Origin: Heliocidaris erythrogramma
Taxonomy: Eukaryota; Echinodermata; Echinoidea; Camarodonta; Echinometridae
Assembly: GCA_025617745.1 (NCBI GenBank)
Contig: CM046853.1
Location: 50,088,934 to 50,152,933, forward strand
Reading direction: 5' to 3'
DNA length: 64,000 nt
The position numbers were made by a program, and so were the translations under genes. The stretch's first letter is position 1, and every line of letters begins with the position of its first letter. This document shows positions 25,758 through 57,664 of this stretch, one piece after another. The notes beneath the pieces were generated by a model. The model was not told where the DNA came from. It did not search any database and saw only the letters and a list, made by a program, of their open reading frames with translations.

Positions 25758-25894
25758 GGTATACTTGTGTGACTAAATGGACAGTCAAACACAATAGATG
25801 CCTTTATTCCGTCAGGCTTGTGTGGCTTTTTTTGCTGCTTGTGTGGCTATTTGAACAATAGAGAGAACAAAGGGAAAGACACACAAGTATACCT
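25758..25894. repeat. Word hairpin: CTTGTGTGGCT element with TTTATTCCGTC core
   Basis: Ends are exact 15-bp inverted repeats, AGGTATACTTGTGTG (25758-25772) and CACACAAGTATACCT (25880-25894). The interior repeats GCTTGTGTGGC twice, has CAATAG spacers, and carries the core TTTATTCCGTC at 25803-25813. It is flanked by GTGTG-rich sequence. Confidence 0.75.
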
Positions 25895-25923
25895 GCGTGA
25901 GTATGTGTGCGTTTGTTTAGCAT

Positions 25924-26095
25924 TATGTCCGAGGACATTTTCGGACAGAGAACAAAAAAAAAATCATGACAACAATGGTCCTCGGAAGGCGGACAATAGT
26001 CCTCGAACGTCGAACAATGAATTTATGCCTTATTCCGTCGACTGTCCGAGGACGAGTAATAATAGAGGAACAATAGTTGTCCTCGGAAGTAAAGC
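25924..26095. repeat. Word hairpin: GTCCGAGGAC element with TTATTCCGTC core
   Basis: The words GTCCGAGGAC and GTCCTCGGA occur at both ends and at several interior sites, separated by GAACAAT or ACAATAG spacers. The core TTATTCCGTC is at 26030-26039. A GT tract (26105-26134) follows directly. Confidence 0.75.
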
Positions 26096-26100
26096 CATGT

Positions 26101-26104
<4 letters not shown>

Positions 26105-26134
<30 letters not shown>
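26105..26134. repeat. (GT)n between two word hairpins
   Basis: A 30-bp GT run separates the GTCCGAGGAC and TCATCGGTTG elements. A second run is at 26311-26340 on the other side of the latter. Confidence 0.95.
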
Positions 26135-26136
<2 letters not shown>

Positions 26137-26310
26137 ATGTATACGCATTCAAACCGATGACATCGAACAAAGAGAACAATGTGTCATCGGTAGTAATTCA
26201 ATAGGTCATCGGTTGTCAACAATTGGTGAGGTTTATTCCGTCAATGAATTTTGTGACGCAATTCAATAGTGGAGTCATCGGTTGAAATTCGAACAATAGA
26301 AAACATAGAT
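26133..26310 (+). repeat. Word hairpin: TCATCGGTTG element, copy 1
   Basis: Words GTCATCGGT, GTCATCGGTTG and the reverse ACCGATGAC are separated by GAACAAT and TTCAATAG spacers. The core TTTATTCCGTC is at 26232-26242. GT tracts lie on both sides. A closely similar copy in opposite orientation is at 44630-44808. Confidence 0.85.
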
Positions 26311-26360
26311 GTGTGAGTGTGTGTGTGTGTGTGTGTGTGTCATTTTCTCAAACATGCTAG

Positions 26361-26714
26361 GCTCCACCCTAAAAAAATGTTCCAGCTCTCATTCCTGCAG
26401 TGACATCATCTGTCAATCATTAGTGATCTAAGGAGAGACAGTGGTATGTAGCTTTGCCAGAGATGACCATCTGTTCTAATAGACCATACAATGCATACAT
26501 AGTAGTTGCTATGTCAGACATGCTGTAGCATCACCAGGAAAAGAATGGTAATGAGAAGGTATTGTTCTAAAGCATGCAATTCTATTGTGAGCATGTGCTG
26601 AGCTGGGGGAAGTTACATTCCACTGTCTATTGTAGAATGTTAGTGCAGCTGACTGATGATTGACAGATGATGTCATTGCAGGAATATGATCTGGAGCTTT
26701 TTTTAGGGTGGAGC
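26361..26714. mobile_element. MITE with TIRs of about 65 bp (GCTCCACCCTAAAAAAA)
   Basis: Left arm GCTCCACCCTAAAAAAATG with GCAGTGACATCATCTGTCAA further in. Right arm TTGACAGATGATGTCATTGC ending CTTTTTTTAGGGTGGAGC. Flanks read CTAG and TTAG, so a short duplication is possible. It directly follows the word-hairpin cluster. Confidence 0.85.
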
Positions 26715-27180
26715 TTAGGATGTTGGAAAAAATATTTCAAAAAATATTTAAAAATCTATGGAACATATTTAGATTTTTGAATAACAAAATATTAGTTGTA
26801 TGCATCGCTGCACATCAACAGCAAAAAACTTGCATTTGGGTTGCATTAAGTTGCAGGGGCCCTTTAAAGAGAAGGTTGAGTTCTAGGCACCGTAACTCAA
26901 AGATTTGCAATCAATTGTTAAATGGTATAGGCCAATCAAGATCATAGTTCTGTGCACATTGTTCAAAAGGCTGACTATTGACCAATCAGAATCGTTGTTT
27001 CAAATTTGCATCTGATTGCAAACTTTTGTGTTACTTGGCCCTGGTAAAGGTGAACATGAATTTTTGAGCCTTCTCTTTCTTTTTCATGTCCATGTGAAAA
27101 CTATCATATAGAATTATATCTGCTAAAAGGATTGATCTTGATATGCCCTCATATTCAAAATATGACCGGAAATGGCTAAA

Positions 27181-27606
27181 AACTTTCGGATCAAATTTTC
27201 ACGCATATGTGTGTGTAGTCCCTTGTACTAATTTTCTGTGTGCAGTCCTTCTCACTACATGTGATTTTCAGCAAAATTTTGTCAATTTCTTACCATTTTA
27301 ATGATTTCCAAACCAGATTTCCAGATTGCTTCTTTCACAATGCAATCGCATGACAAGTATTCAGCTATATCGTGAAATAATAAAGTTGAGTTCTGGCCAT
27401 ACGATTACACTGTGAAAGAAGCTGTACGGAAGTAAACGGGAAAGGTTGTTTATGTAGTACGTATAAGAATTGATGTATACTGTGAGGTTTCGAAATGACC
27501 AAAATAAAGAGAACTGACTCAGTCTTGTGGAAAGCCACATGCACTTCATGCACACAGAAATGTGCATATGGGACTACACACACATGCAGCATCAAAGTTT
27601 GAAACA
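27181..27606. mobile_element. Foldback element with GTGTGTGTAGTCCC arms
   Basis: The left arm GCATATGTGTGTGTAGTCCC and TTTCTGTGTGCAGT pairs with TGCACACAGAAATGTGCATA and GGGACTACACACACATGC on the right. A second inner pair is GCTTCTTTCACAATG with CTGTGAAAGAAGC. It lies 5' of the LINE tail at 27739. Confidence 0.65.
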
Positions 27607-27738
27607 TTTCAGCTGTTTCTCGTCATAATTATTTCGAATATTAGGGCTTACGAAGAGCAGTCTTTATAGTATGAATACCTTCCACGCTGACAGAAACAAG
27701 AATGAGATAGAAAGCTCACAAATTGCTCACAAGCTCAT

Positions 27739-27919
27739 AACTTGCCATTGGAAGTCAGGAAATCACCATCTGTGAATATGTGTAAATCAAAACTCAAAGC
27801 ATATCTATTCAAATAATAACAAGCATATCAGGAGCTCATGTAGCGCAGTAGAATATATACTTATTGTTGGATAGTTACTGCGCTTCAAAAATGTATTATT
27901 ATTATTATTATTATTATTA
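27739..27919 (+). mobile_element. Non-LTR retrotransposon 3' end (ORF2 C-terminus and ATT tail)
   Basis: Codons 27739-27816 read NLPLEVRKSPSVNMCKSKLK then AYLFK and a stop. This is the usual C-terminal end of LINE ORF2 proteins (N-x-L-P...S...F/C-K-x-K-L-K-x-x-L). About 80 nt of 3' UTR follow and end in (ATT)n at 27896-27919. Upstream sequence is a different foldback element, so this is a severely 5'-truncated copy. Confidence 0.7.
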
Positions 27920-28150
27920 AATTATTTTTCATCTTTACCAGAATTCGACTTTTTCTTTAAGGGAGGAAAGATGATAGTGTGATGAGAAAGTGCCGCGTCC
28001 TTCGTCTCACTGGGACACGATACCGTGGTTGATGTCCGACTTCCTGGCCTGATGACACTGAGTGCAGTCTCATACGATAAATTACCCGCCATTGCGACAG
28101 AATGTTTCAGGAATAGGCCGCAGGAAAGAGTTCAAGTGAACTTCATATTT

Positions 28151-28341
28151 CATCTCTCTCTCTCTGCATTTCCTGTGTCTTCTCCCTCTCCCTCTCCCTC
28201 TCTCTATCTCACACCCCATCTCTTTCTTTCTCTCTCTCTCTTCCTTTCTCTATCTCCATATCTCCCTATTTCTCTCTAACCAAGCCACCTTGCTCTCTTT
28301 CCTTTCTCTCTCTCATTCTCTTTCTCTCTCTCTCTCTCTCC
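28151..28341. repeat. (CT)n / CTCCCT tract
   Basis: Pyrimidine-rich low-complexity sequence, mostly TCTCTC with CCCTC and TTTC interruptions. Confidence 0.9.
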
Positions 28342-30390
28342 TTTTTAAAATTCTATTTCATTTTCGTTTTTTGAAAATCAATTTAACGATTTGGTTGTGG
28401 CGTGAAATAAATGTAGTGTTTCTACTTTTCTGTTTCCTAGAATATTTCAAAACATTTAATGTGAATTAAAAGATCCTAAATATTTCGTACCAAATCGCAC
28501 GTTCGCTTAAAACTCTTGAAAGGCAAGCGGTTCTCTACATGAAATTTCGATTGGATATTGTTCATACATTATTGACCTCCTTTGACCTGCTACCTATACA
28601 CTGTTGTCATTTGGATGGATGTACAATATTTTGACATAAATCTGAAGATCTAATTGGATCTAATTGAACTGCATCGAGGGTATTGGCGACTTAATTTTGT
28701 TCCTCTTCAAATTATCCGGCTTGTCGGTTGGTCTTGTTCGATGTTTATTGAGAAAGAAAGGCACGCCCAGATAATTTGATTATAAGAGCGCATTCATATT
28801 AAATCAATTTAGGTCAATCTAAAGAACTATGGTCGAAGTTCAATAATTAAATTGCAATCCTGTACGTCTATTAATGTAATTAGAATCATGGGAGACACGA
28901 AAATGAAAATATTACTTCATTCTTCCAGTGCACTATTGAGAACAATCACAATGGATAGCGAATTGATGTCACAAATTCATGTTCGCTATCTGAATGAAAC
29001 TGAGATACAAAAACATAAAGTTATGTCGAAAATCATTCATAAGAATTCATATTCGGCACGGCACCGGAAAGGGTTAGGGTTAAACAAGGGCTAAACAGAA
29101 CAAAATAGCACAATTGTGAAAATATTCAGAAGCATTCATTCCGGATAAAACATCGCGAACTCTTAAAATCAAAATGAGATAAGGAAAATGGACAGTTGGC
29201 TTGAAATGCTAACACGAACAATTTGATTGTGTTAATGTGATGGACACACACTTGTATATCCATATAAATCAATATTCATTTAATGGTGAATGTCTTTCTC
29301 GCAAGACATTCATATCAGAAAGTTGATCAACACTTTAGCTTCAACTGTCATATTTTTTTCTCGAGCATCACAGCATAATGCAGAATCCAAAAACTTTACT
29401 GAAATTCAGTGAAGCCCCGCGCAGTGGTTAAAGATATGTAGTGAGTGGGTTGCGAAATTTTATTCAATTCACAACTTGTCGACTTTGATAAAGGCCGTAA
29501 TCGAACACATGATCTAAAAGCGATTTAAACCTTTCATGAAAAGAAGAAAAGGTTCCGTAACTCTTTATGAACATTTCCGACGCCATTTTCCTAACGGAAG
29601 CTTAGAAAAGTCTCTGGGCTGTCAAGTCGACGGGCACCCAAAGCATCGATGTCGTTCGGCGGGATATTATAATGTCAGGACGGACCTCGGAGAAAATGCA
29701 ACTTCATACATGAGATGATACAGTGGATTGGTGATGAGCTACAGACAGTCGCCTTGTAAGATCATCGAGACAATTCTGACAGCAGCTTCGGCTTTGGGGA
29801 AATCTGGAAGCGATACTTCAAAGATGGCATCTTTAAGCATCGGAGATGAGACACAAAGTGCACTGGGTAACCACAAGGTCTCAGTCAGTCTCGAAATAAA
29901 ATCCAATCGTTAAATTGTATTGCGATATGTTTCTGCTCCGTTTTAAAACCAATTGTTCCTTCGTGTCCTTTGAAGCAATCGGGAAATGGTTCGTGTCACA
30001 TTACGCTTTGCAACCTGTTGGCGCCAATCACTGGCCAAAATATTATCGTAGGATAGAATTACATCACATATTAATTCAGCATGATTACTATAGTCAAAGT
30101 TTTCATTTTTTTTAAATTTAACTTGCTGCAATGCTCTGCTTTATTGTGATCATGCTTGATAATGATCATCTGCATGCAGCTCATAGCATATTAAATGTCA
30201 GCATGCTAACTGGATCAATATAATGACCTGATTTCTTCCACTACACTGAAATAGTTCTGTCATCGAAGAAGAAATCCTTAAGAAGAGAAATGTCATTACG
30301 GTCGCTTCGAATCCATCATGCCATGAACATTACAATTCTCATAAATATTCATACATTTCCAGTCACTGTATGAACGTGTCCAGAAAGTAA
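28342..30390 (-). other. Intron sequence without recognised features
   Basis: Continuation of the 12.8-kb intron between the CT tract and the TA-flanked MITE. It holds short frames only. Confidence 0.6.
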
Positions 30391-30397
30391 TTTGTTA

Positions 30398-30792
30398 GAG
30401 TACCGAAGTGTGACGTCATCAAATTTTGATTTTTGTATTTCAGTATTTTTATGACCATATATAGGTAGAGCATGATGGAAAACGTTCACACATCAAATTT
30501 GACATGAATCAGTTAATGGTGGCCCAAGGTATGGCTATATGAATATCTAATTAGCCCCACTGAAGTCAGTGTAAATTGGCCTGGTTCTTAAAAGTTTAGA
30601 ACCAGGCCAATTTAACACTGACTTCAATGGGGCTAAGGAGGTATTCATGCGGCCATATCTCGGGGCCCAAAGAGCCAATTGCCATAAAATTTGGGATCTG
30701 GATGTTTTTCACCATGTTCCTTTGAGATATGGTATGAAAAATGTCAAAATGAAAAAAAAAATGCTTTTTGTGACGTCATCAATTCGGTACTC
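30398..30792. mobile_element. 395-bp MITE with TA target duplication and two TGACGTCA sites
   Basis: Terminal inverted repeats are GAGTACCGAA and TTCGGTACTC, flanked on each side by TA, which suggests a Tc1/mariner-type non-autonomous element. TGACGTCATCAA occurs near both ends (30411-30418 and 30771-30778). The centre is a near-perfect hairpin (GCCCCACTGAAGTCAGTG ... ACTGACTTCAATGGGGC) around 30598. Confidence 0.85.
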
Positions 30793-32050
30793 TATAGATA
30801 CACGCTAATTGATCGTTTCATGATTTCACGATCATAGACCTTTACAAATTATTTAGTACAGTGCCGAGAATTCAGTAAAGTGTATGGTAATATAATAATG
30901 ATAAAATATCGTATATGATAATAGCACATTACAACTGAGCTGTAAAGTCTGAACTCTTCTTCAATGTCGTCTTGTCCAGCATAATCATATTGACCTGTAA
31001 TACATAGTTCTCATGTAAAATGCAGGTCGAAAAAATCTCTGTGTCCGGGAAAGTGATCCAATATTTACAGAAAGAATCTCATGGATAGAATAACCTTTCT
31101 TTTTCATCTAACATAAACGTATCTGTAACGGTACATGTAATAGTATGTTGTTTTTTTAATTCAAAAGGCATGGGAGTAATGCATCCCTTTCAAAATGAAA
31201 CTGAATACTTTTTACATCATTCTTATGAACAGAGCCTTTTTTTCCCCTAATGAGTGCATGTTGTCACTCATTGAATAAAATGAGGTATTATAATGCACCT
31301 CCCCCTCCACTACAGGAGTCAGCGGAGTAATCATGCATGCATATCAAATGCATAGCCTTCTGAAGGAGCTAATACTATTATATTTAATGTACATATAATG
31401 GCATAATTTTAAGCTGCGCCTGCATATGGAATGTCTCTTCGGAGCTCATCGCGGAGAAGTATAGAGATTTTTAAAACACTGCGTTGATATTTTGTATGTA
31501 TCAAAGCTTCGTGTACTACCATATTCTGCTTGTCTGATGATATGTTATTTCAATTCAGTGAAGCAGAAACTTCTGGATACATTTCAAATATAAAATAATG
31601 ATCATTTAAAAAAACCGTCTGATGAATGCACGTTTCGGTGATTAATACAACATATCAGGACCAAAAGGTAGTCATAACAAAACGACAATATTCAAGGCGC
31701 AAACGTAAACGCTTCAAACATACTCTTGAAATATTATCTTGATATTTCTTAACCATATGTCTTGCTTACGCAGTCAAAATAATTGACAAGTTGGTATTAC
31801 AAGACAGAGCACATAATTTATACAACCATGATTAATTTTTACGAGTATATAGTTCAGTCATGCATGTAACTAACATGCGTCTGCTGAATGTTGTTCGGAT
31901 AGATTCGGATATTAAAGCGCCTGACTATAAAGTTAAAGATTAAGTCCGAGAAATTATATCATTCAAGATTTTATAAACGGGGAACTATAGAAAGGGACTC
32001 ACTGTCTATAATTTTAAATGTATACTATCAGCATTTTAGTGTCTCTGTAT

Positions 32051-32243
32051 CCATCTCTCTCTCTCTCTCTCCTTCTATCTGTCTGTCTGTCCGTCTCTCT
32101 CTCTCTCTCTCTTCCTCTTTTCCTCTCCTTTTTTCCTTCTCTCTCTGTCTCTGTCTGTCTCTTACTCTCTCTGTATATCTTTTCTCCCACCATCTTTTTG
32201 TCAATTTGTCTCTTTTCCTCTTTCTCTCTCTCTCTCTCTCTCC
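32051..32243. repeat. (CT)n / CTGT tract
   Basis: Pyrimidine-rich tract with TCTCTC and CTGTCTGTC. The Ser/Leu-rich frame over it is an artefact. A second CTGTCTGTC patch follows at 32490-32545. Confidence 0.9.
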
Positions 32244-33517
32244 CACTCTCTTTTTGTTCATCCGATAATATGCCTCTACGACACTGACTTGCTCATGTCC
32301 TTATTGAGTCAAAGAAATTGCCAATTGCCAATTGGATATTATTGCGATCGGGTATAGGTTAAGTTTAGGATATAGGGCCGGTACATGTATGTATAGCGCA
32401 TGGTCCAGAGTTGGAAGTTAGCAATTCTGTTGGTATTAGAAAATGACTGCGGAGTAATTTTGCCGGAGAATGTATCGTACAATACTCTCCGCCTCTGTCT
32501 GTCTGTCTGTCTGGCTGGCTGCCCGTTCTCTGTCTCTCTTTGTCTCCTCAATTTCACAAATCTCTAATAGTGTTGTTACATATCTGTTCTCTCTTTCAAT
32601 TTCCCCCAGCCATGTCAATCACAGACAAAAAGTATCAGAAGAATACCCAATGAAAATCGCTTGATCTGAGTATTAATTTTAGAGATCGAAAAGAGATCTC
32701 TGCGGGATAAACTATTATTCTACAAATAAGAGAAGTAAACTGGGTGATAACGATTAGACAAATCGCATCAAAGATTATGAAATATGCTCGATGAAAATGT
32801 TGTCTTAAGTGATTTCTCGTTCTTTTTATGCTTCCTCATTAAATGCCTTTGTAACTCCATCAAACCACCATCCTTTTCAAATATATATTCATTTCCTGTG
32901 CGGGTAAATCTTACAAGCCTTAAACCTGGGGAGCAATAATAAATAATCCACCCCGGAAATTTCAGTTCTTCGTGTCCTCCTGTGACTGCATGATTTTCAT
33001 TAAGTGGGAAGCTCGCCTAGATTCTCGGATTAAACTCCATCAAGATGTCTTGTAGACGTCAATGGATGGCCGATCGTAGAAGAGTAATTTTGGATATATT
33101 GCGAAATTCATGTCAGAGTAGTCGTATGTCCCTCTTTTTTATGTTAAAGAAGAAGGGTATTGCACTATTTTGACGTGACCCAATTATGGAACTGAAGGTA
33201 TGTTTTTGTCCATTTTATTCATCTAGATTAGTTAATTATTATAAAGCAATGTAAGATTCAAAATGTTTAGAAATATACCATTATTGACGTACATTAAAGG
33301 CGCGTGTTTTCATAGTCATTTAAAGTTAGTGTGGGTCCCCTATTTTCAAGCACTCGGCCGGAGATTCGACTGTCAAACAACATTTCACTGGTGGTGTAGG
33401 GAAATATGTATAGCCCATGGACGATCATAGCAAAACAGCTTTATTTACCTACAGGTATTGAGGATATTATAATCACTACACGTAAACGATAATGACATAC
33501 ATATCTTCTATAATAAT

Positions 33518-33545
33518 ACATATATATATATATATATATATATAT
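33518..33545. repeat. (TA)n microsatellite
   Basis: Uninterrupted TA run in the intron between the 34186 and 21325 exons. A G-run lies at 33642-33657. Confidence 0.95.
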
Positions 33546-33824
33546 GGAAAATCATTATATTCACTCATTCATCTTTACACTTATTTCAATTTTTAATACG
33601 CACTATTACACATACGTCATATTATCTCCTGCGAAACGGGGGAGGGGGGGGGGGGCAAGTACATCGATCGTTAGCATACACTTTGTACACGTCTTGATAT
33701 TCGATTAATTATTTGAAGGCTGCTGCGCCTCAACCGCCATCCCGATCAATACTCTACACAATGCGTGATATATTTTACATAACATAATGTTGTTATTTCA
33801 ATCGCACATCTATACTCCGAGATC

Positions 33825-34098
33825 GGCCTACTCTCTCAATGCAGAAGAGTGAAAATCCACTTTTGTATGAGTGATATTAAGAATCTCTTCCACTGGAGTT
33901 GAATTCACTCCAAATCATAGTGGAATCCATTCCAAGGTAGTGGTTGAATCACTCTTTTGAGAGTAGATTTCACTCTTGTGAGAGTATATTTCACTCTTGT
34001 GAGAGTATATTTCACTATTTTGAGCGTGTATTTTCACTCCAAACAAGGTGATGGCTCAAAAGGTGGAGTTCCACTGCTGTACACTTTAGAGAGTAGGC
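33825..34098. repeat. Word hairpin: TTTCACTC element next to the GAF-A exon
   Basis: Ends are imperfect inverted repeats GGCCTACTCTCT and AGAGAGTAGGC. Inside, GAGAGTATATTTCACTCTTGT is tandemly repeated, with outlying words AGAGTGAAAA and GAATTCACTCC in both orientations. The element ends about 90 bp from the donor of the exon at 34186-34341. Confidence 0.65.
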
Positions 34099-34185
34099 TG
34101 CACGGAGGGTATGGAAGGGGCACAACTGCCCAATCAACCACCATCCAATGTACGAAGCCCGAGTGACCACACCCAATATCCTTAC

Positions 34186-34341
34186 CTTTTCGTCATCCGG
34201 AGAAAATGTTGCCCCTGTCACTTTATTGATAACGAGTGCCACCCCGATGACGTCGTCCTCGCTGTTCCTGATTGGCAGACACAGCAGGGATTCCGCTCTG
34301 GACCCGAGATTCGGTTGCACGTCATTCAAGCACGGGGGTTC
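34186..34341 (-). CDS. PDE11A: PDE11A-like exon, GAF-A C-terminal part (52 codons)
   Basis: The exon is bounded on the minus strand by the acceptor GTGTTTTCCAG and the donor GTAAGG. It is 156 nt long and phase 0 at both ends. The translation starts EPPCLNDVQPN and contains AESLLCLPIRN, then VIGVALVINKVTGATFSPDD, ending EK. It carries a complete NKFDE signature (N-K, then F-x3-D-E). In PDE GAF domains this motif supports the fold needed for cyclic nucleotide binding. In human PDE11A the GAF-A domain is the reported cGMP-binding one. An intact motif suggests ligand binding is kept here, which is inference. The donor lies about 90 bp from a CACTC-word repeat element in the following intron. Vertebrate PDE11A reads DDEK at the same position, which supports the exon end. 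Confidence 0.9.
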
Positions 34342-36771
34342 CTGGAAAACACATGAGTAAGAAGGTGCAAATTGTTATACAATTTCATCCAACTATCGAG
34401 AAGATAATTTCTATATTGTACCGGTATTTGGTAAGAAAAATATAGTTTCGAGAAAACGGGTGAAAGGAAGCACAATCTCATCCCCGGTTTTGATTACTTT
34501 TGTTATAATTTATGCAGCTTTTTATATGATAAAATAAGCTATTCGTTGTGCACCGCGCATGGATAAAACCGGCCTTAACCATTATACCCAAACTCAGAGT
34601 TGGAGCCGGCGCTACCCTGTACGAAACACCCATTCTTTTTCGCCCTGCAACCACAACACGCACATGATAGACCACAATAGTTACATCATCATCCCCTTCA
34701 TACTACAACCCCATCCCTCATATACACCACCCCTACCCCCTCACTCATCCCCACCCTCAGCCACAGACATACAATCCCTTTTCCCTCCTTTACAACTATC
34801 GTTAGAGTCAGCGAGAGGAATAGAGTGGTTTGAGAAAGGGTAGAGATCTACATGTGACGACATATCATCCAGACATATATATGAAGTGACGACACTGGAC
34901 CTACTGGATGAAGAATCTTTTCATTTCGTGTCATAATCGTTCTGTGTGTGTAACATCCACGTCACAAAACGAATGAGAGGGACGTACGCAAGGAGAGGAA
35001 ATTGCGTTTCGAAGAAAAACCTTCTCCTCTTAACCACTCATTGTCATTTTTACTTGTGCTACCTCTCAATGAAAGGCACAACAGCACACGTCGATGTCAT
35101 AACCATCAATCTTCAGTATGTAGAACTGATTATAGAAAAATCACAGTTCACAGACTCACAGTTCTTGTTAATAGGAGAAGCTAAGAGATCACAATAATGT
35201 TTAACACCAATGCTAAAATAAATTTCTCCCCTGGAACAATCCCTTCGTAACAACCAATGACCCCCCTAGGATAATTACAAAATGGATAAATACAACTAGG
35301 ACAATCATTATTATGAGAATAATCCCTCTGGGAGGATGGTTATTCTAAATAAATCTGTCGTCGGGGATAATTATGCTTCATTCAGATATCTGGGTTGTAG
35401 TTGTCCTAGTGTAGAGAGGAAGTTGACTCTATGTTTCAAGAAAATTAATGTCCTCAGGTATATAGTTGACTAAATTGTAATTTACAAATCGTTCGGGGGC
35501 GGGGATACTTGTCAATGTCCGTCAGGGGGTATTCGTCGAAGAATCTTTTTTGCAACTGATTTGCACACGGGATCAATCTCTCATTGTCGCCAGTCTTATC
35601 ACAAATTCAAACTTGTGGAATTAACACAACAAGATGCATTGCCTTGTTTCTTCACTATGCCTCAGTGACACTCAATACTCAAAAGTGATGCAAATGCATT
35701 TTGCCTCCATCGATATGTCCCGGACTTAAAGGGGAATTAACCTCATAATATAAATGTGCTTATATTCAAAGATGTAATCTATTCCTTCTTGTTGTCCTAC
35801 GTAGTTTTGCATTCGAATATACGAGATGGGTATAAATCAAGATTGTGTACATAAAGATATTTTTAATCCGAATGCAAAATTGTCTTTCTTCCTGATACAA
35901 AATCCCATTTGAGATTTAAAATATTTAACAGATATATACATATATTCTAAAAACGAAAATGTGTTTTATATTTCTTTGAAAATTACGATTTTACTAAATA
36001 TAAATCTATTTTCTTGATACTATGACGTACGCGACGGAGCGAATTAATTCAAATTTATGCCAGATGACTTTCCTGAGCGTCAATAGTGACAAACTATGCA
36101 TTCACCTGCTTTGAGATAATGGACTTCAAAAGTCAGAATGCGCGTTGTATAAATTATGTTCTGCTCTGCCAGGCAAGCCCAAGAAAACGACTTCTATTTA
36201 GAAAAACCAGAGAATTTAAAAAGAAATCTATTAATTTAAAAGTTCAGAATATATGTATAGACCTGTTATGTATTTTCCATCATATATGGGGATTATTTTA
36301 TAATGAAGAGAAGCAATTTAGTTCGAGGATTAAAAATATCTTCCTGACCGGAACGGTTTCCAATGGTTCATATACAACTCCATGTCATCAAGAAAATGGC
36401 AGCCCCCATGTAAAGTGTTAGCAGATGATATCGTGAGCTAGAATGTCTTGATTTAAACCCTTTTCTGATATTTTATTTCTAAAGTGATACAGGTCAATGA
36501 TTAAGAACACATTACACCTTTGAACATAAGTACATTTGTATTCTAGTGTTAATTCTCCTTTAAAGCCTTTAAAATGGTGTGTGCTGACATAATTGAGCCA
36601 AACGTCGATCCCTAAAATCATTATACGTTTTTACGAATTTCCAAAACCCTTCCTTTTTACATCTTCCGCGAAGCTTGAATTGACATGAAGAGTACAAAGA
36701 GAAAAAAACAAGAAAGGAAAAAAAATAACTCTGCGCCATGAAAAAGCAAGCCCCGACGAAACAAACTTAAC
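34342..36771 (-). other. Intron between GAF-A exons
   Basis: A 2.4-kb intron. Words such as CCTAGGATAATTAC and ACTAGGACAATC recur between 35220 and 35420 and may be a decayed word hairpin. Nothing else was recognised. Confidence 0.55.
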
Positions 36772-44605: not shown

Positions 44606-44629
44606 CCACACACACACACACACGCACAT

Positions 44630-44808
44630 ATCTATGTTTTCTATAGTTCGAATTTCAACCGATGACTCAACTATTGAATTGCGTCACATAATTCATTGAC
44701 GGAATAAACCTCACCAATTGTTGACAACCGATGACCTATTGAATTACTACCGATGACCCATTGTTCTCTTTGTTCGATGTTATCGGTTTGAATGCGTAAA
44801 CATGTACA
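44630..44808 (-). repeat. Word hairpin: TCATCGGTTG element, copy 2 (inverted)
   Basis: The reverse complement aligns along its whole length with 26133-26310 at roughly 95% identity by eye. It includes the core (here GACGGAATAAA) and flanking CA-rich tracts. This shows the element is a real dispersed repeat unit of about 178 bp. Confidence 0.9.
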
Positions 44809-46243: not shown

Positions 46244-46269
46244 ACTTACAAACATTTGTCAATTATGGA

Positions 46270-46734
46270 TTTTGCACCCTTTCACAAAAGTAGTTGTTTA
46301 CTCCCAGTGTTTAAGATCGTAGGCTCGATCTGTAATGAAAAACACAAGTCAGAAAAAATTGGAACCAGCGGGATTCGAACCTGTCATCTACTGCTTGCCG
46401 GGCAGCGCCTTAACGACCAGGCTATTCTGGTTCACGGCCAAGTCACGATGAACGGGAATCAAATACACAAGATCCTCTTCTTTCTGGCTCATTAATATTC
46501 AAACGGTCCGCCGTAGACAATGGTTAGTAAACGAAAAAGCTTGATGGGAGGAATTTTAAGTTGTAAACAAATTTTTAGGCATTTTACTCCCAGTGTTAAA
46601 GATCGTATGCTCGATCTGTAATAAAAAAAAAAACACAAGTCAGAAAAAATTGGAACCAGCGGGATTCGAACCTGTCGTCTACTGCTTGCCGGGCAGCGAC
46701 TTAACCACCAGGCTATTCTGGTTCACGGCCAAGT
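46270..46734 (-). repeat. tRNA-like satellite, two inverted (minus) copies
   Basis: Two minus-oriented copies of the unit of about 286 bp seen at 46735-48165 lie head-to-head with it. Both keep the tRNA-like segment in antisense, recognisable by GGATTCGAACC, the reverse of a B box. The more distal copy begins in diverged sequence near 46290. The second copy lacks the segment between GGCCAAGT and CTACGGCGGACC, so the inversion point sits at about 46730-46740. Confidence 0.85.
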
Positions 46735-48165
46735 CTACGGCGGACCGTTTGAATATTAATGAGTCAGAAAGAAGAGGATCTTGGGTATTTGATTCCAGTT
46801 CATCGTGACTTGGCCGTGAACCATAATAGCCTGGTGGTTAAGTCGCTGCCCGGCAAGCAGTAGATGACAGGTTTGAATCCCGCTGTTTCCAATTTTTTCT
46901 GACTTGTGTTTTTCATTACAGATCGAGCATACGATCTTTAACACTGGGAGTAAAATGCCTAAAAATTTGTTTACAAATTAAAATTCCTCCCATCAAGCTT
47001 CTTCGTTTACTAACCATTGTCTACGGCGGACCGTTTGAATATTAATGAGTCAGAAAGAAGAGGATCTTGGGTATTTGATTCCAGTTCATGGTGACTTGGC
47101 CGTGTACCAGGATAGCCTGGTTAAGTCGCTGCCCGGCAAGCAGTAGATGACAGGTTCGAATCCCGCTGGTTCCAATTTTTTTCTGACTTGTGTTTTTCAT
47201 TACAGATCGAGCATACGATCTTTAACAATGGGAGTAAAATGCCTAAAAATTTGTTTACAAATTAAAATTCCTCCCATCAAGCTTCTTCGTTTACTAACCA
47301 TTGTCTACGGCGGACCGTTTGAATATTAATGAGTCAGAAAGAAGAGGATCTTGGGTATTTGATTCCAGTTCATCGTGACTTGGCCGTGAACCAGAATAGC
47401 CTGGTGGTTAAGTCGCTGCCCGGCAAGCAGTAGATGACAGGTTCGAATCCCGCTGGTTCCAATTTTTTTTTTCTGACTTGTGTTTTTCATTACAGATCGA
47501 GCATACGATCTTTAACACTGGGAGTAAAATGCCTAAAAATTTGTTTACAAATTAAAATTCCTCCCATCAAGCTTCTTCGTTTACTAACCATTGTCTACGG
47601 CGGACCGTTTGAATATTAATGAGTCAGAAAGAAGAGGATCTTGGGTATTTGATTCCAGTTCATCGTGACTTGGCCGTGTACCAGGATAGCCTGGTTAAGT
47701 CGCTGCCCGGCAAGCAGTAGATGACAGGTTCGAATCCCGCTGGTTCCAATTTTTTTCTGACTTGTGTTTTTCATTACAGATCGAGCAAACGATCTTTAAC
47801 AATGGGAGTAAAATGCCTAAAAATTTGTTTACAAATTAAAATTCCTCCCATCAAGCTTCTTCGTTTACTAACCATTGTCTACGGCGGACCGTTTGAATAT
47901 TAATGAGTCAGAAAGAAGAGGATCTTGGGTATTTGATTCCAGTTCATCGTGACTTGGCCGTGAACCAGAATAGCCTGGTGGTTAAGTCGCTGCCCGGCAA
48001 GCAGTAGATGACAGGTTCGAATCCCGCTGGTTCCAATTTTTTTTTTTCTGACTTGTGTTTTTCATTACAGATCGAGCATACGATCTTTAACACTGGGAGT
48101 AAAATGCCTAAAAATTTGTTTACAAATTAAAATTCCTCCCATCAAGCTTCTTCGTTTACTAAATA
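46735..48165 (+). repeat. tRNA-like satellite, five direct copies (unit 283-290 bp)
   Basis: Landmark CTACGGCGGACC begins at 46735, 47021, 47304, 47594 and 47879, giving periods of 286, 283, 290 and 285. Each unit has a tRNA-like core with an A-box-like TAGCCTGGTGG and a B box GGTTCGAATCC (47388-47459 and 47962-48033 in the best copies). It continues with ATTACAGATCGAGCATACG and a common tail. Units 1, 3 and 5 read CCTGGTGGTTAAG and AACACTGGGAG. Units 2 and 4 read GTACCAGGATAGCCTGGTTAAG-type sequence with a 3-nt deletion, and AACAATGGGAG. The order is therefore A-B-A-B-A. Frames open across the units are by-products of the repeat. Confidence 0.92.
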
Positions 48166-48528
48166 TTTATTTTAGGAGACTTTTCCCAACTGTTTTCCAA
48201 CTTTTTTGGGGACGCACTGTAGAGTTGGGTTTTAGGTTAGGCTTTAGGTTTAGGGTTCGAATTTGGTATTGCGTATGGTCCAGGTGTGAAGTAAGGACAT
48301 GACAAATATTCTTAGCACTTTAATTGTAATAATAAAATTTAAAAATCTAACGGTAACATCAAACCTTTTACTGTGTCACTTTGGACCATCTCTTCATAAT
48401 TTGATAGATGGAACGTCCCAAATATATTTTTCGTTATTATCAAGTTATCCAAGTATAGTCCTCTTTTTTCTATTTGGACACTGGAAATACCTAGCAGGAC
48501 AATGGAAGGCAGTTTCATGACACCAGGG

Positions 48529-48694
48529 TGGTGTTTCATAAAGCTGTTCGTAAGTTACGCACAACTTTATGCACGACTGGTGATCAGTTCTTGTGCTAAA
48601 TGATTGAGAATCTGATTAGTATAGCACCCAAGAACATGTTCCAGTCGTTCGTAAAGTCATTCGTAACTTTACGAACAGCTTTATGAAACACCCC
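48529..48694. mobile_element. GGTGTTTCATAAAGCTG MITE
   Basis: Inverted ends GGTGTTTCATAAAGCTGTTC and GAACAGCTTTATGAAACACC, continuing into GTAAGTTACG and CGTAACTTTAC. The element is 166 bp with no coding content. This type of hairpin is familiar from echinoderm-like genomes (inference). Confidence 0.85.
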
Positions 48695-50602: not shown

Positions 50603-51748
50603 GGCGGATCCAGGAATTTGAAATAGGGGGCGCCAGCGGCGAGGGAGCGAGGGAGGGTATGGGAGGGGGTATCTCCCTCCCACGGTAAGGACTTTTTCAA
50701 AAAAAACATGTGCGAAAGTCGCATTTCAAGAGCACTTTTAGAGGAAAAGTTGTAACCAAATGAATGACATACCGGGAATGGGCTGTTTGTAAGGAAAATT
50801 AAATACCTTTGAAGTTTATTTATTCTTAATATGCAAAATACGGTAGGCGTCATTTCATAAAAATATTCAGCTTGAACGATGCAGTCAGTTAAATTTAAGC
50901 ACAATTAATTGTTATTGAATGATAATAGTTAATATACCTGAGGCCTATTTCTCAAAGACTTAATTGAAAATTAAGATCGTCTGAAAAAGTAAAGTGTGAT
51001 GTGAGTGCCTTAACTGCCAGACCAAATGCCTCTTTTTGAGACTTTTCCATTTAGTTACATTATATGTAATCATACAAAGAGAATGAGAAACATCTATGTT
51101 TTTTAATCAACAAATAAAAAAGAAAGAAATGAACTCTTAAGGTATTTATTTTCAATTCGATAGAGTACTGTAACCATGATTATTAAGTCGAGCTTCAATT
51201 TTATATCAAAACAAATCGTTCGATCGTGAAACACCCCCTTTTCACATTCTTAGTGCTTCTACATGTGTGGCCTTTATTATGTTGTACACGCGCGCACATA
51301 TGGCAAGCCTTATCACTATTTAAAGTGATTTTTTGATATCACGAATTCGAATTTGTGATATCAAAAATTAAATTCGTGATATCACAATTTCGAATTCGTG
51401 ATATCACATATCACAAAATCACTTTAAATAGTAATAAGGCTTGCCATACGCACACTCGTGGATCGTGAAATAAACAGTACCTGAACTACTTTCCTAATAC
51501 TTTTAGCCTCGGTACCAATCTAATTTTGCGCTTCATTATCATGATTAACAACTTGAAGTAAGGGAAGGGGCGCTTCTTACAATAAAATGTGGTGTGCTAC
51601 TATTAACGAAATACTTGGTAATGAAACCAAAAAAATTTATGAAAAGCCCACGCTATATTTAAGGTGATCCGAAGATTTAAAAAAAAAATCACAAAACAGA
51701 AAAAATTAAAGGGGGCGCGCGCACTTGGCGCCCCTGCCTGGATCTGCC
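50603..51748. mobile_element. Non-autonomous element of about 1.15 kb with GGCGGATCCAGG ends
   Basis: The left end reads GGCGGATCCAGG with GGGGGCGCC nearby. The right end, reverse complemented, reads GGCAGATCCAGG with GGGGCGCC. A GGCGGATCCAGG end is a motif I associate with abundant invertebrate repeats, though I cannot name the superfamily. There is no transposase frame. A younger-looking palindrome (51301-51446) is nested in it. Confidence 0.65.
51301..51446. repeat. Palindrome with ATTCGTGATATCAC words, nested in a larger element
   Basis: Outer arms TGGCAAGCCTTAT and ATAAGGCTTGCCA continue into ACTATTTAAAGTGATTTT and its reverse complement. The interior repeats GATATCACGAATTCGAAT in both orientations. 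The whole hairpin sits inside 50603-51748. Confidence 0.85.
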
Positions 51749-54356
51749 ATTGGCCACACAAAGTCTAGGAATAAAATAATATTGATGGAAAAATACGAAC
51801 CAAAAATATTGATTGAACGTCTGATTTGAGCGATTTCATTCGCAAGCCCCGAAATGTCAAATTTCATGTCAACAAATTGCGAACTATGTGCGAAGTAAAT
51901 GAGTTTGCAGACATAGGATATATTTGTTTTTGTATTATCAAAATTACACGACTGTTTTTTCTTGGTAAATTGACAATCTTCTTGGGAATTCTTGAATTTG
52001 GATTTTGATTTTTTGGCAAAATGGCACTTGTGGCTATCAGAAAAATAACATGTGATTAGTGATTATAGCAATACCAAGAATATTTCTCGCTCACTCCCAA
52101 GTGAATACTTTACTGTCGCATGCATATTGGGCTCCCCATCATACCTAAGCTCGTATTGCAAATATCATTATACTCTCACATAATGATAAAATATTGATAT
52201 ATTTATTCGTACTGGAAGGATTACTTGCAGAGAGAGGCGCCAGTATATAAGGGTAACTCTGAATAATACATCGGGGCTATTGTGTGATATATTACAAATT
52301 ATATCAAAAGGGCGGTATAGCATGATGTTTCTACACTGCAGACATGATTATAATTTCTGTATATTGTTTAACAGCACGTTTTAAGGCTATTTTTCAATAT
52401 TATAATCAGATTTAATTTTCATCTTACTACTTTGATATATCAATCCCACTATCTTAATAATCAGTATCGGTACATTCTTTCTGTAATGGCACCGCATTTC
52501 TGTGATAGGATCAGCCACCATTTAATCAATATTGATTATATACTGCAAGCGAATTTTCGGCAAAGAATTCAAGTGATAATGTTCTACAGTGGTTTTTGCA
52601 CGACGCCATGTTAAATTTGACACCTTCGTTCAAGCTTGTAATTCCATGCTAAAGCTCGTGACAAGAATGCGACAGAGTGTTACAAGCACGCCGAACATTC
52701 TCAATGCATCATCGGTTGGATGAGTAGGGTTTGTAAAGAGAATTTACTCCAATAAATAAAACCAGAGAGACTTGAGTGAATTGAATTCCTGCCTACGTGT
52801 ACGTGCGCGTGAGAATATTATGTGGGTGTGTATCCTATGTGGGTGTGTTTAGGGATTTGTGGGGAAAGGTATTTGCTGCCGATGAAACAAGACATTTGTC
52901 GATTCATAGGATCAGAAATTATCGGAGGTTCGAGCAAAATGTATTTTACATTTAACATTAAGGGTGCTCAAAACGTACATTTGCAGTGGATGCTCTTAAT
53001 GCTGTGATTTTCAAATAATAAATAGTATCATAACTCGAATATTCGCTGGAGAAAATGATAGCACACAGCAAGTATTTCCATCATTTCAGCAATAATAACC
53101 ATATGACATTATAGAATACATCTTAATTAATTTTTTTGTACGCCAGCTGCACGCACGCTCCCTTGTTTTCATTTTGCATCAGTTCAAATCAAGGAATCAT
53201 ATATATCTAAAGTCCATCAAACTTCATGATAAAAGAAGTGAAATGTAAAGAATAAACTCAAGGCACGGTTTAATCAAATGTTTATGAAAGCTGTTACCTT
53301 GTATCCTTCTTCTTCGATTGGCATTTCGTGACATTTTCCCTGCCCCTGCCCAGTTCATGAATTCAAGATTAAAGTGCCGAGGACAATATAAGAAGAGCAC
53401 GTGTTCCCTGGGGCGGAAAAAGCAAGTCTTCACTTTATACCATGCCATCAATCTAAAAAAGGGCCTATTATTGCGATTGCCTCTTCAAAGCAGTCTGTCT
53501 TCGATTGATAGAAACTTCCTTCCCCGGTCGAATTCGTTCCACCAACCCACTTTTGCAAAATACCAAGGGAGAATGTTTAAAACTTTCCCCACCAAAGTAT
53601 AGTACGTTGTAGTTTCAGCTTGTCGATGTGTGGATTGTCAAATCTTATTCAATTTTTCTAATGAATGGTATAAGCAATTTGTGTAATTGGAATTACGAAT
53701 ATTCTGGGTAAAGTTGATTTGAAAAATAAAGCACTATTCCCCCGCAATGAAATGCGGATCTTTGGGGTTGGAGATTCGTCATAATCTGAACCACGTAAAT
53801 CTGGATAAAGGCTCATAATGCCAAAGTATCGTTTATCCGATTACATAATGAAATTGCAGAATAACAAATTCTTACCTGATGCAAGACTGATATCCTATCC
53901 TCAAATTATCTGCATTATTGCTACACTTACAACATTAAACTGGTATACATGCAGATATCAATTCAATACCTGCTTGCTCAACTACCCATCAGATCATATC
54001 GTATTAAGCTGTTAAAAGATTGCCTATATTTTAATTTCTTGTAGCATTAATTTATTATTTTGTGAACACTTCTTTCATTTTCTTATCCTTTTTCAGCTAT
54101 TCAAATAATTCATAATAACAATAATCAAACTTCCTTCGGTTTTTTTCTTCTAAAATTTCAATTTAATGCAACATCATTAAGCACCTTGTATTTGAAGATT
54201 GCCTTTCGATCAGATTCTTCCATTCTTCATTAAATTCTTAACGTCCCCATTTGCGCGTGCCTGGCAGACTTGTTGACCCTGTTTTAGCCCTGCTCGATCG
54301 ATACCGCAGATTCTATGTCGATCTCGACCAAACCTGCTATATAATGTCATTCACCT
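51749..54356. other. No gene firmly recognised (one weak exon candidate)
   Basis: The only candidate is a minus-strand open segment at 53298-53407. It lies between a good pyrimidine-tract acceptor (CTTTTTCCGCCCCAG) and a GTAACA donor. Its translation (REHVLFLYCPRHFNLEF...) matches no GAF or PDE N-terminal sequence that I recall. Confidence 0.4.
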
Positions 54357-54487
54357 GGGCCCTGTCTTATGAAGAATTGCGATTGTTCCGAATCAATCGC
54401 AAGTCCTGCAATCAATAGTAATTTTAAAATCCTTTATGTCTATGTACATCAACTTAAAAATTGAGTTGCGATTGATAAGGCGCGCCC
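54357..54487. mobile_element. GGGCCCTGTCTTATGAAGA MITE, copy 1
   Basis: The left end GGGCCCTGTCTTATGAAG is followed by ATTGCGATTG. The right end has GAGTTGCGATTGATAAGGCG and CGCCCC. The repeated GCGATTG word in both arms links it to the sequence at the right window edge. Confidence 0.6.
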
Positions 54488-55410
54488 CTATTCTTAGGAC
54501 GAGAACACGGCTGGATCACGTGATTTAGTACTACCGCAAACTGTAATCCACAGTCTAAGGGGCTGGTCAAATATCAAAGATGACAATAACGATAAAGATG
54601 AAATCGTTCAATGTAGAAATTGTATCGGATCCGAGAAAATTAGGTGCTGAAAGCTAATTAGCATAATCTGGTGAGCACTATAAATTTCTACTTGACCGAT
54701 GTTATCGTTGCAGCTATCGTTGATGTAAGAAACTCATGACGTAAGCTCGTAGAAACATTTCGTTACATCATATCATTTGAAAATAATCATTCACTTTCGA
54801 CAATGTGGCAGTCATGATGCACCATTTTAGCACAATATAATCGTCTGTTTTGATAATCCATCCATCGATGTGGGACTATTAATAGTTTGTCTTTCTTCTA
54901 TTTCTGGTTAATTTTCTACAGCGGACCTATTTGTCTACACGAAAGACACTTTGTCAGAATAATAAAGGTGGGTTCGAAATTGCCCACACGACTTTCATCG
55001 GGGTACTGGAGAGCACTTTGAGGAGTTTATGTGCGTGGAGGCTTCGACGAAATAAACAGATTCGGATGATTAATGACGAATGTAAGGCTAAGTTCAACCT
55101 TTTTGTCACATTCACTCTGATGACTAAACAGGGATCGTGTTGAATTTACAGAAAAAAGAGAAAAGGAGGACCAAATGAAAAAAGGGCGAAGAAGGAATGA
55201 AGCACACGATTCTAGGAACATAACATTTCACAAAGTGTAACGTCGTGAACTAGCCTAGTATGCCTTGTGGTCTTTTTCTTATCTTGTCTAATAAAAAACA
55301 CGCCCAAGATAAAGTCTTAAAACTTATTGTTCCTTTCATTAGAGTTAAACATATAAATGAATAAAAAAAGGTTTGATGCGTCGCATGCAACTTTGAGTGT
55401 TCTGTATCTT

Positions 55411-56432
55411 AAGCTGGGTTCACATAAACGATCCGACGCGCTGTCGATGGGATTTCGACAGATTTTTTTTTTTTTTTGGGGGGGGGGGGTGAGAGGGGCA
55501 CATTCGGCGGCAAGTCTGAGATGCTTCGTCGATCAATCGGGTTTTCCGCCGACACAAACGACTATTTTTGGTGATTGGTCATTTTTAAGTGCGAGTTAAA
55601 ATTTTGCGATCGATCGGCGAAGAAAGCCCTGGCGGCACCCATCGCCGACTTTTCGGCGGCTGTCGGCGTGCAATCGCAGATTAATAGACGAAACACCGCC
55701 GATTAGTCATTGTTCCCCGTCCGATTACAGCATGTCAGCGAACCTGGGCAGTCATTTCCATCATAGCCGACTGATCCCCGACATTTTTGCGGCTGTCGGC
55801 GTGCAATCGTAGATTAATCGACGAAACGCCGCCGATTAGTCATTGTTCCCCGACCGATTACAGCTTGTTGGCGACACATCTAAGACCCTACGGTGATTAG
55901 TCAACGACTAGCCGCCGGCGCGTCGCAGATATATCGGGGGCTTGTCAGTGATATAACGTATAGCCTTTTTCACACGGTCCAGAAAGGATGAAAATTATTG
56001 GAAAAAGTATTTGACATAGAAACAAAAACTGTGGGAAAATTGTTCAAATCGCAGTTGTACAAAGCACACGTAATCGACGATACATTGGCGACGTGCCGGC
56101 GGCTAGTCTTTGACTCGGCCGGGGGACCATTGACTAATCGGCGGCGTATCATCGTTTTATCTCCGATTTCATTGACTCGGCCGGGGACCATTGACTAATC
56201 GTCAGCGTATCGTCGTTTTATCTCCGACTGAACGCCGACATATACCCCCCCCCCCCCCAATCGACGATGTTCACAGGAAACCGTTGGGGGACGTCGGTTT
56301 TTGTGAATGCTCGAAAGCACAAGCGTTGCTGGATACCCCGACATCAGATCGCAACGTCAATCTCGCCGACGCCGATAAAATTTAACAAATCGCCGAGGTA
56401 TCGGTACCGCCGATTTTTATCTGAACCAAGCT
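55411..56432. mobile_element. GC-rich foldback element with GCCGATTAGTC words
   Basis: Terminal inverted repeats are AAGCTGGGTTCACATAAA at the left and, reverse complemented, AAGCTTGGTTCAGATAAAA at the right. The interior is much richer in CG than its surroundings. It repeats GGCGGCTGTCGGCGTGCAAT, GCCGATTAGTCATTGTTCCC and the reverse GACTAATCGGCGGCG. A T-run/G-run lies near 55468-55490 and a C-run near 56247. No transposase is visible, so it is probably a large MITE or foldback. Confidence 0.75.
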
Positions 56433-56539
56433 TTATCTGTCTTATATTATTTTTTTCATTATTAATCGTAAGAATTTTAAAATATTATACGTGTACATGA
56501 GCGTGTGTGTGTGTGTGTGTGTAAGGACCAACAAGTTAG

Positions 56540-56800
56540 AATTTGCCAGATGTTCTGTCTCACAGACATTTGTTCATGAAGGAAATTAATAAATTGCCTA
56601 TTTGCGGCATTGAGATCAAGAGATTTAGTATATTTGGCGTGAGATTTATAAATCACTGTCGATCAGTATTGTTTGGAATATACAGCACAATAGATCACAA
56701 TTTGGTATCACGGAGTTCTTTCTCGTTCTTACTGTAGAGGCCTGATGAAGATCACAGAGCGAAAGCTTGACTACAAATAAAGGATGATAAATAAAAGCTA
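56540..56800 (+). repeat. Possible retroelement 3' fragment with CTGATGAAG...CGAAAGC
   Basis: The frame at 56543-56737 ends HNLVSRSSFSFLL and a stop. It is followed by CCTGATGAAGATC, GAGCGAAAGCTTG and CAAATAAAGGATGATAAATA. A CTGATGA...CGAAAGC stretch after the ORF is often seen in retroelements of invertebrates. I cannot name the family. The CTGATGA/GAAA spacing is hammerhead-like, but I could not form stem II. Confidence 0.3.
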
Positions 56801-56921
56801 CGACCGCCTCATATTTACCACTTCTTTCACTGTATATATATATATATATAAATATATAATGTGAAAGAAATTACGAGAATAACGTTGCGTAGCTCAATCA
56901 AAGTTCCCCAGAGCTGTCCTT

Positions 56922-56929
<8 letters not shown>

Positions 56930-56956
<27 letters not shown>
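56930..56956. repeat. (TA)n inside the tRNA-bearing inverted repeat
   Basis: TA run next to the left arm. Similar TA tracts lie at 56832-56852, 57312-57338 and 57507-57520. Confidence 0.9.
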
Positions 56957-56959
<3 letters not shown>

Positions 56960-57077
56960 TACATACATTATCTATACATATCTATATACATACAGAGACA
57001 AAGGAATTAATTAAAAAGGTTGGAGATTTGTCAATCTGTCGGTCAATTGAATTTGGTGTCGCCGAAACCACTGGGCC

Positions 57078-57149
57078 GTATCCGTTGTCTAGTGGTTTAG
57101 ACATTGGCGTTTTAAGCCAAAGACCCGGGTTCGACTCCCGGCGGAGACA
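57078..57149 (+). tRNA. tRNA-like gene, anticodon TTT (Lys-type), inside an inverted repeat
   Basis: The 71 bases plus an A discriminator fold as a cloverleaf. The acceptor GTATCCG/CGGAGAC has six of seven pairs, the D stem is GTCT/AGAC, and the anticodon stem TTGGC/GCCAA has loop GTTTTAA. The variable loop is 4 nt and the T stem is CCGGG/CCCGG with loop TTCGACT. An internal B box (GGTTCGACTCC) is intact. A run of six T follows at once (57150-57155), as expected for a Pol III terminator. The loop reads anticodon TTT (Lys), but the body does not look like a standard eukaryotic tRNA-Lys and has an A-G acceptor mismatch. It lies in the centre of a repeat bordered by inverted arms of about 65 bp. 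It may be a mobile or pseudogenised tRNA rather than a working gene. Confidence 0.45.
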
Positions 57150-57358
57150 TTTTTTCAACCTTTGCAAAAATTTCAAAAAGGGAGGACAGCTCTGGGGAAC
57201 TTTGATTGAAGTTACGCAACCATTATTCTCTCATTTCATTTCACATTGTATTCATTTCCACGAGAGTTGCCAAAGCTGTTGTATATGTTATTTCCTTACA
57301 ATTATATATTTATTATATATATATATATATATATATATCAATATATATAAACACCTAT

Positions 57359-57495
57359 CGGGTACATTAGGAGGACAGTTTTTGTTCTTTTTCTTTGTCC
57401 AACTGTCGACTTAATGTACCAACTGTCGACCTAATGTAGGGGTCTCTATTACGACGAAATAAACTGTATTGTCAACTGTCGACCTAATGTACCCG
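57359..57495. repeat. Word hairpin: GTCGACCTAATGTACC element
   Basis: Ends are inverted, CGGGTACATTAGGAGGACAG against CTGTCGACCTAATGTACCCG. The word AACTGTCGACCTAATGTACC appears three times with small changes (57401, 57421, 57474). A core variant GACGAAATAAAC lies at 57453-57464. TA tracts flank the element. Confidence 0.8.
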
Positions 57496-57527
57496 TTAGT
57501 CAAATATATATATATATATAACTCTAT

Positions 57528-57664
57528 ATGGTACCTTAGCAGGACAGTGCTTTGTTAGGAGCATTGTCTGAATGTCCTGCTAATGTCCGCGAGTGTCCTG
57601 CTAATGTACAGCAATGTATTGTGACGGAATAAACCTCATTGTTCACTGTCCGCTAACGTACCAT
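57528..57664. repeat. Word hairpin: GTCCTGCTAATGTAC element
   Basis: Ends are inverted, GGTACCTTAGCAGGACAGTG against CACTGTCCGCTAACGTACC. The word TGTCCTGCTAATGT occurs twice inside. The core GACGGAATAAA is at 57623-57633 and is followed by CATTGTTC. It is the same size (about 137 bp) and layout as the element 33 bp upstream but uses a different word. Confidence 0.8.

Follow-up and report, generated by a model that had tools for sequence, protein, structure and literature searches.

Six short stretches of a 64-kb window (the whole piece of DNA that was analysed) had been described in a first-pass annotation as hairpins, each filled by its own word repeated in both orientations around one near-identical core. 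The question raised by the locus is what these elements are, and how the words of one element can differ from those of the next while the middle stays the same. Reading of the sequence at these places bore out all six elements (E1-E6, Table 1), which are 137-180 bp long by the annotated limits (E1, E5 and E6 137 bp each).

Words, lineages and layout

A 9-letter word was counted in each element on either strand with at most one mismatch; 5, 5, 4, 4, 4 and 4 copies were found in E1-E6, and these counts were matched in 0, 0, 4, 0, 0 and 0 of 200 dinucleotide shuffles (the E3 count exceeds 196/200), in agreement with the annotation that each element is filled by its own iterated word. The fifth match in E1 is inverted, lies inside the element at about 25783-25791 and was left out as a word. 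Neighbouring direct copies are spaced 20-22 bp apart and the terminal words are inverted (e.g. GGTATACTTGTGTG, GGGTACATTAGG and GGTAC(N)TTAGC) in all six elements. With at most one mismatch no word matched in elements of other lineages, nor did the E2 word match in E3; with two mismatches 0 to 2 cross-matches per element were obtained. The same 9-mers occur elsewhere in the window 7 to 16 times, singly. Other iterated-word repeats lie at 17.5, 33.9, 51.3 and 61.9 kb of the window and are without the core. GAC, picked out by eye as a candidate cross-lineage signature, stands at the inner end of most words.

The six elements fall into three lineages with five word families between them. E3 and E4 share a family (194/202 aligned bases identical, 96%), and alignments spanning the element length were obtained for E2 with E3 (141/187 aligned bases identical, gaps uncounted; score 65 against 48 for the best of 200 shuffles) and for E5 with E6 (118/160; score 113 against 55), so the earlier statement that the words are unrelated holds between the three lineages and not among all six elements. 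The words of E2 and E3 are a few letters apart (CCGAGGAC vs CCGATGAC), as are those of E5 and E6 (GTACATTAGGTCGACAGTT vs GTACATTAGCAGGACAGTG). Three cross-lineage pairs scored narrowly above all 200 shuffles (E1/E3 48 vs 47, E1/E4 46 vs 43, E3/E6 53 vs 50), which is tentatively ascribed to the core and the TG flanks; for six other cross-lineage pairs among E1, E2, E3, E5 and E6, and for two with E4, between 1 and 17 of 200 shuffles scored as high. A profile built from the six elements, which were its training set, gave no further match below E 0.1 elsewhere in the window.

Two layouts were seen in core orientation. In E1, E5 and E6 a word precedes the ACAAT-core, two more words follow it, the second 20-21 bp after the first, and ACAAT or ACAAAG motifs lead on to the inverted word. 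In E2 and E3/E4 a first word is followed by ACAAA(G) and ACAAT motifs; next come an inverted word, ACAAT (replaced by TCAAT in E3/E4) and, 21-22 bp from the previous one, another inverted word, after which the ACAAT-core, an ACAAT-like motif and a last inverted word complete the array, with an additional word copy directly after the core in E2. The core is combined with word arrays of either orientation.

Table 1. Positions of the elements, their cores and the neighbouring dinucleotide tracts in the window
Feature	Position	Strand	Description
E1	25758..25894	+	word CTTGTGTGNCT; terminal copies 25764-25774 (+), 25877-25887 (-); internal copies 25817-25827, 25838-25848 (+)
E1 core	25791..25813	+	ACAAT...TTTATTCCGTC; pattern match
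E2	25924..26095	+	word CGAGGAC/CCGAGGAC, reverse complement GTCCTCGG; five copies, stretches from 25925, 25976, 25997, 26042, 26077
E2 core	26014..26039	+	ACAAT...CTTATTCCGTC; pattern match
TG-rich tract	26103..26148	+	alternating; between E2 and E3, extends into E3 start
E3	26133..26310	+	word ACCGATGAC, reverse complement GTCATCGGT; four copies, stretches from 26149, 26182, 26204, 26273
E3 core	26219..26242	+	ACAAT...TTTATTCCGTC; pattern match
(GT)n tract	26317..26340	+	downstream of E3
(CA)n tract	44607..44631	+	at one E4 end; TG on core strand
E4	44630..44808	-	second, inverted copy of E3 family
E4 core	44698..44721	-	pattern match
(TA)n tract	57314..57338	+	outside E5
E5	57359..57495	-	word GGTACATTAGGTCGACAGTT and near copies; four, from 57361 (+), 57401, 57421, 57474 (-)
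E5 core	57453..57472	-	ACAAT...TTTATTTCGTC; pattern match
(TA)n tract	57504..57520	+	between E5 and E6
E6	57528..57664	-	word GTACATTAGCAGGACA and near copies; four, from 57530 (+), 57570, 57591, 57644 (-)
E6 core	57623..57642	-	pattern match

Conserved core and motif polarity

The central block described for all six elements was recovered: the pattern ACAAT-N(1-12)-YTTATTYCGTC matched 6 times in the window, each time within an element (0.01 expected from 100 shuffles), a count that is descriptive because the pattern was written from the elements themselves. The string TTTATTCCGTC with at most one mismatch matched 9 times in the window, 6 of the 9 matches being the six elements (1.57 expected; 0/100 shuffles reached 9). 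Within the elements and 10 bases on each side, all 15 copies of ACAAT lie on the core strand and 0 on the opposite one (13 and 0 when the sister copy E4 is set aside), and the split for ACAAAG is 5 and 0; across the whole window ACAAT is found 114 and 119 times on the two strands. These motifs may resemble HMG/Sox sites.

Public collections of prokaryote genomes and viruses, from which the source's own or near genomes are possibly excluded, gave core-pattern matches in 39 stretches (prokaryote genomes) and in 0 and 25 (virus), and the E3 word pattern had 0 matches in the virus collection. None of the 64 core-like matches had at least 4 word copies within 85 bases (46 had 2, 15 had 3 and 3 had 1), so they were taken as chance. 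No description of a repeat of this type was found in searches of the open-licence PMC literature; the literal core string or its complement stands in 4 papers, in one of which it is a primer in onion.

Concerted change of the words

That the arms of an element are rewritten together, as had been proposed, was supported for the words of two homologous pairs, E4 being omitted as a copy of E3 and E1 having no sister; the comparison leans toward this result, since words were picked by how alike they are inside an element and were aligned by eye. With the same caution, words of E2 and E3 (five and four copies) lay at a mean distance of 0.188 inside one element, against 0.333 for words of the two elements in the same slot; 2 of 12 columns were fixed for different letters and the true labelling alone was best among 126, and in E5 and E6 (four copies each) the distances were 0.167 and 0.287, 2 of 20 columns were fixed for different letters and 2/70 labellings were as good, namely the true one and its mirror. 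Copy 4 of E5 (GAGGAC), which departs from its three sister copies (GTCGAC), is an exception to the concerted pattern.

Identity between the copies of one element was 0.91, 0.96, 1.00, 0.83 and 0.78 over nine word columns (E1, E2, E3, E5, E6) and 0.22-0.26, near chance, in the flank columns of the same elements (more than 16 before or at least 9 after the anchor). In E1, E3 and E5 the profile has dropped by about the third column from the edge of the word; the drop is less clean in E2, where some motif columns remain high, and in E6, where an indel in one copy blurs the edge. Matched slot by slot, E5 and E6 agree at 41/64 spacer, 61/76 word and 16/20 core bases, and in E2 and E3 the agreement scarcely differs among the three classes (75/99, 31/40 and 19/23). 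From the slot-matched and within-element identities together, spacers resemble the slot partner in the sister element and not their neighbours in the same element; words resemble both.

Surroundings and folding

An alternating purine-pyrimidine run of at least 12 lies within 30 bp on one side of 6/6 elements and on both sides of 5/6, as compared with 6.2% (one side) and 0.4% (both) of 20,000 random placements, and at a stricter cut of at least 14 the values are 5/6 and 3/6 (E1 none, E2 and E6 one side, E3-E5 both); neighbouring elements share tracts, so these counts are not independent. Microsatellite on both sides, as expected of a microsatellite-targeting MITE, is thus found for 5/6 elements at the cut of 12; E1 has a tract at this lenient cut only. 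The flanks of E1-E4 are TG-richer on the core strand. Elsewhere in the window, an exon-like stretch at 34018-34374 (-) resembles chains of cyclic-nucleotide phosphodiesterases (best E 8.7e-13) and gave no Pfam family; a match to GAF at 16278-16562 is weak and falls below the cut-off (E 0.011). The DNA is presumably of animal origin.

All elements were folded as DNA, E2-E4 as trimmed stretches, and z-scores of -3.1, -2.7, -0.6, +0.5, -4.6 and -3.8 were obtained for E1-E6. The description of all six as hairpins is right for the inverted terminal words and for the four elements that fold better than shuffles; it does not cover the internal direct copies, nor E3 and E4, whose folding as trimmed stretches is no better than that of shuffles. 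A stable stem in every copy, as a miRNA-like hairpin gene needs, was therefore not seen. In Rfam, the window gave only a tRNA, outside the elements, at gathering level; with E up to 5, the regions of E1-E3 and E5-E6 gave 16 matches, all far under the family cut-offs, and the best of these sits on TG repeats. A ribozyme/retrozyme or miRNA reading is without Rfam support.

Nature of the elements

The six elements are probably short non-autonomous inverted-repeat transposons (MITE-like) that went into alternating (TG)n and (TA)n tracts, or next to them, in an apparently animal genome. They have the MITE traits of shortness, terminal inverted repeats and absence of coding sequence; they are too short for a transposase, and neither a transposase partner nor an empty site was seen within the 64-kb window. 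Dispersal may be reflected in one separated pair in 64 kb, E3 and E4, which lie 18 kb apart in inverted orientation and whose flanks beyond the TG tracts, judged by eye, are unlike. No clear target-site duplication was found at the element flanks, which are mostly TG/TA repeats that mask such a duplication, so that none is readable; E1 has 7-base direct repeats, one of them (TGCGTGA) at a distance of 15 bases from the left end, whereas direct repeats at E4 do not exceed 4 bases.

Against the transposon reading stand the similarity of E2/E3 and of E5/E6, which runs into the flanks, and the orientation of the cluster members, which all face one way and are compatible with tandem duplication. The same flank similarity and the head-to-tail arrangement of E1-E3 and E5-E6 would suit satellite-like tandem monomers (word element plus microsatellite, a unit of about 170-225 bp), perhaps Helentron-like-borne, that diverged in place, and oyster Helentrons are reported with satellite-like arrays in the accessible part of PMC7492417; this origin is nevertheless improbable, given that E4 is solitary, inverted and 18 kb off, that E1, E2 and E3 are adjacent yet carry differing words and that the layouts differ. 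Hairpins kept by the host for a regulatory or RNA-coding function (enhancer, miRNA-like) could account for the strand polarity of ACAAT, and are very hard to reconcile with the Rfam result, with the two elements that fold no better than shuffles and with the internal words, which are direct repeats of one another and change along with the terminal ones.

The template switching or arm-to-arm gene conversion suggested in the first-pass annotation would rewrite the words within a copy without any binding protein taking part. Both processes work well on inverted and direct copies within 150 bp, and fixed word differences between homologous elements are what they would leave. The explanation is not favoured here and is judged unlikely: conversion usually takes neighbouring bases along, whereas agreement between copies is confined to the words and is near chance in their flanks, and E3 and E4 give no sign of fresh homogenisation (8 mismatches over 202 aligned bases; 39/40 aligned word bases alike). 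Agreement that fades a few bases off the word would fit a protein-recognition site better than long-tract conversion; very short conversion tracts may also cause it.

For transposons of the kind proposed, a mechanism can be outlined in which the protein assignments are held with less confidence than the transposon reading itself. Words that keep near-fixed slots at two-turn spacing, are inverted at the ends and stand between dissimilar flanks would suit the sites of a multimeric DNA-binding protein. A transposon-encoded DNA-binding protein or transposase would recognise the terminal word, which recurs inside the element about every two helical turns, and ACAAT with TTTATTCCGTC would be a second, slower-changing site set common to all families, read perhaps by an HMG/Sox-type protein, either accessory or from the host. 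Families would split when the word-reading protein shifts its preference; only copies with all words matching would then keep spreading, so that the words would turn over together and the core would stay. What is observed is the anatomy, the conservation of words and core, the concerted word differences of two pairs, the microsatellite flanks and two separated copies of one family; transposition, any bound protein and this selection are inferred. More tentatively, and with doubt outweighing confidence, the elements may belong to an animal mini-transposon superfamily with a two-part address, consisting of a fast-changing word that is kept alike across the four or five slots and an ACAAT/TTTATTCCGTC code that is strand-polar and fixed between families. 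If so, one conserved reader and interchangeable word readers would allow new families to arise by swapping the word alone, and the fixed middle, if confirmed, would point to an unchanging partner protein.

Comparison with known systems

A conserved middle with changing ends is unusual, and no match to this combination was found in searches of the open-licence PMC literature. The sea urchin TU foldback elements have modular inverted repeats of short iterated words and are much longer than E1-E6. Closer in size and setting are the microsatellite-targeting MITEs, short inverted-repeat elements adjoining dinucleotide repeats, of which the accessible parts of PMC8449440 and PMC4486113 describe the Ac-mMITEs of pineapple, which cluster through adjacent insertion with microsatellite in between (PMC8449440), and MuTAnT of Medicago, with modular terminal inverted repeats (TIRs) and target-site duplications that are hard to read (PMC4486113); rice Micron and maize TAFT are also named among them (PMC8449440/PMC4486113). 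The two pineapple families share TIR similarity (PMC8449440, accessible part), family-specific iterated words round a common core are not among the features in those parts of the two papers, and both TG and TA tracts are involved in E1-E6.

ATon of Aedes aegypti, as far as the accessible part of PMC3422177 goes, comprises 26 families in one genome of small non-autonomous animal elements with TIRs (ATon-I 112 bp, ATon-II 144 bp), comparable in this to E1-E6, and its partner is given there as unknown. Internal and TIR sequences are particular to each ATon family, and groups covering 22 families share 5-9 extreme-end bases (same part of PMC3422177), a pattern that appears to be nearly the reverse of that in E1-E6.

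The statement that no named repeat class behaves in this way was too strong. In the accessible parts of PMC8978399 and PMC2613891, CACTA elements, soybean Tgm (PMC2613891) among them, carry subterminal words of 10-20 bp, iterated direct and inverted, that differ between related elements of different species (PMC8978399) and among CACTA elements generally (PMC2613891); in Jozin of Chenopodium, four elements from four species have the 12-bp word TATTTGTAACTA, TATTTGTAACGG or, in two species, TATTTGCGTCAC, in 19-23 copies (PMC8978399). A word that differs in all slots thus has precedent, and element-specific words in both orientations near the ends are found in E1-E6 as in CACTA (En/Spm-type) elements. 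CACTA elements differ in being kilobases long with CACTA ends, whereas E1-E6 have 137-180 bp, four or five words and a conserved middle; CACTA/CACTG ends were looked for and E1-E6 have none of this type, CACTR lying close to 1 of their 12 ends, where chance would give 0.39. According to the accessible part of PMC2613891, the subterminal words are read by TNPA in Spm, coevolution of words with TNPA-like binding proteins has been raised, and so has the question of a recognition site changing in several slots together. Such change is harder to trace in kilobase-long CACTA elements; if genome-wide copies confirm the pattern, elements of the present type would offer a readable record of a transposon recognition site changing in several slots at once.

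Other repeats and coding-like sequence

The core (the ACAAT-gap-YTTATTYCGTC block common to the six word-bearing elements E1-E6) was absent from a further inverted repeat built of an iterated word, of GGTTCATAATTCCGAA type, and from an inverted-repeat element with three copies of the ATCTCATGC word. Palindromic words of GATATCAC type were nested in a foldback. Five copies of a 284-bp tandem repeat were adjoined by an inverted copy of 222 bp (whole region 46297-48162). An exon-like stretch matched phosphodiesterase 2A/5A chains, and a Pfam search of it returned no family.

An inverted-repeat element carrying a tRNA lies 150 bp from the word-bearing element E5: between its 31-nt arms (97% complementary) are a complete tRNA-Lys(TTT) and a (TA)n tract.

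Positions of the features in the window
Feature	Position	Strand	Score
GGTTCATAATTCCGAA-type inverted repeat	17489-17891
Exon-like stretch	34018-34374	-
Inverted copy	46297-46518
Tandem repeat	46733-48162
Foldback	51287-51460
tRNA-bearing element	56894-57209
tRNA-Lys(TTT)	57078-57149		58.8 bits
ATCTCATGC element	61938-62100
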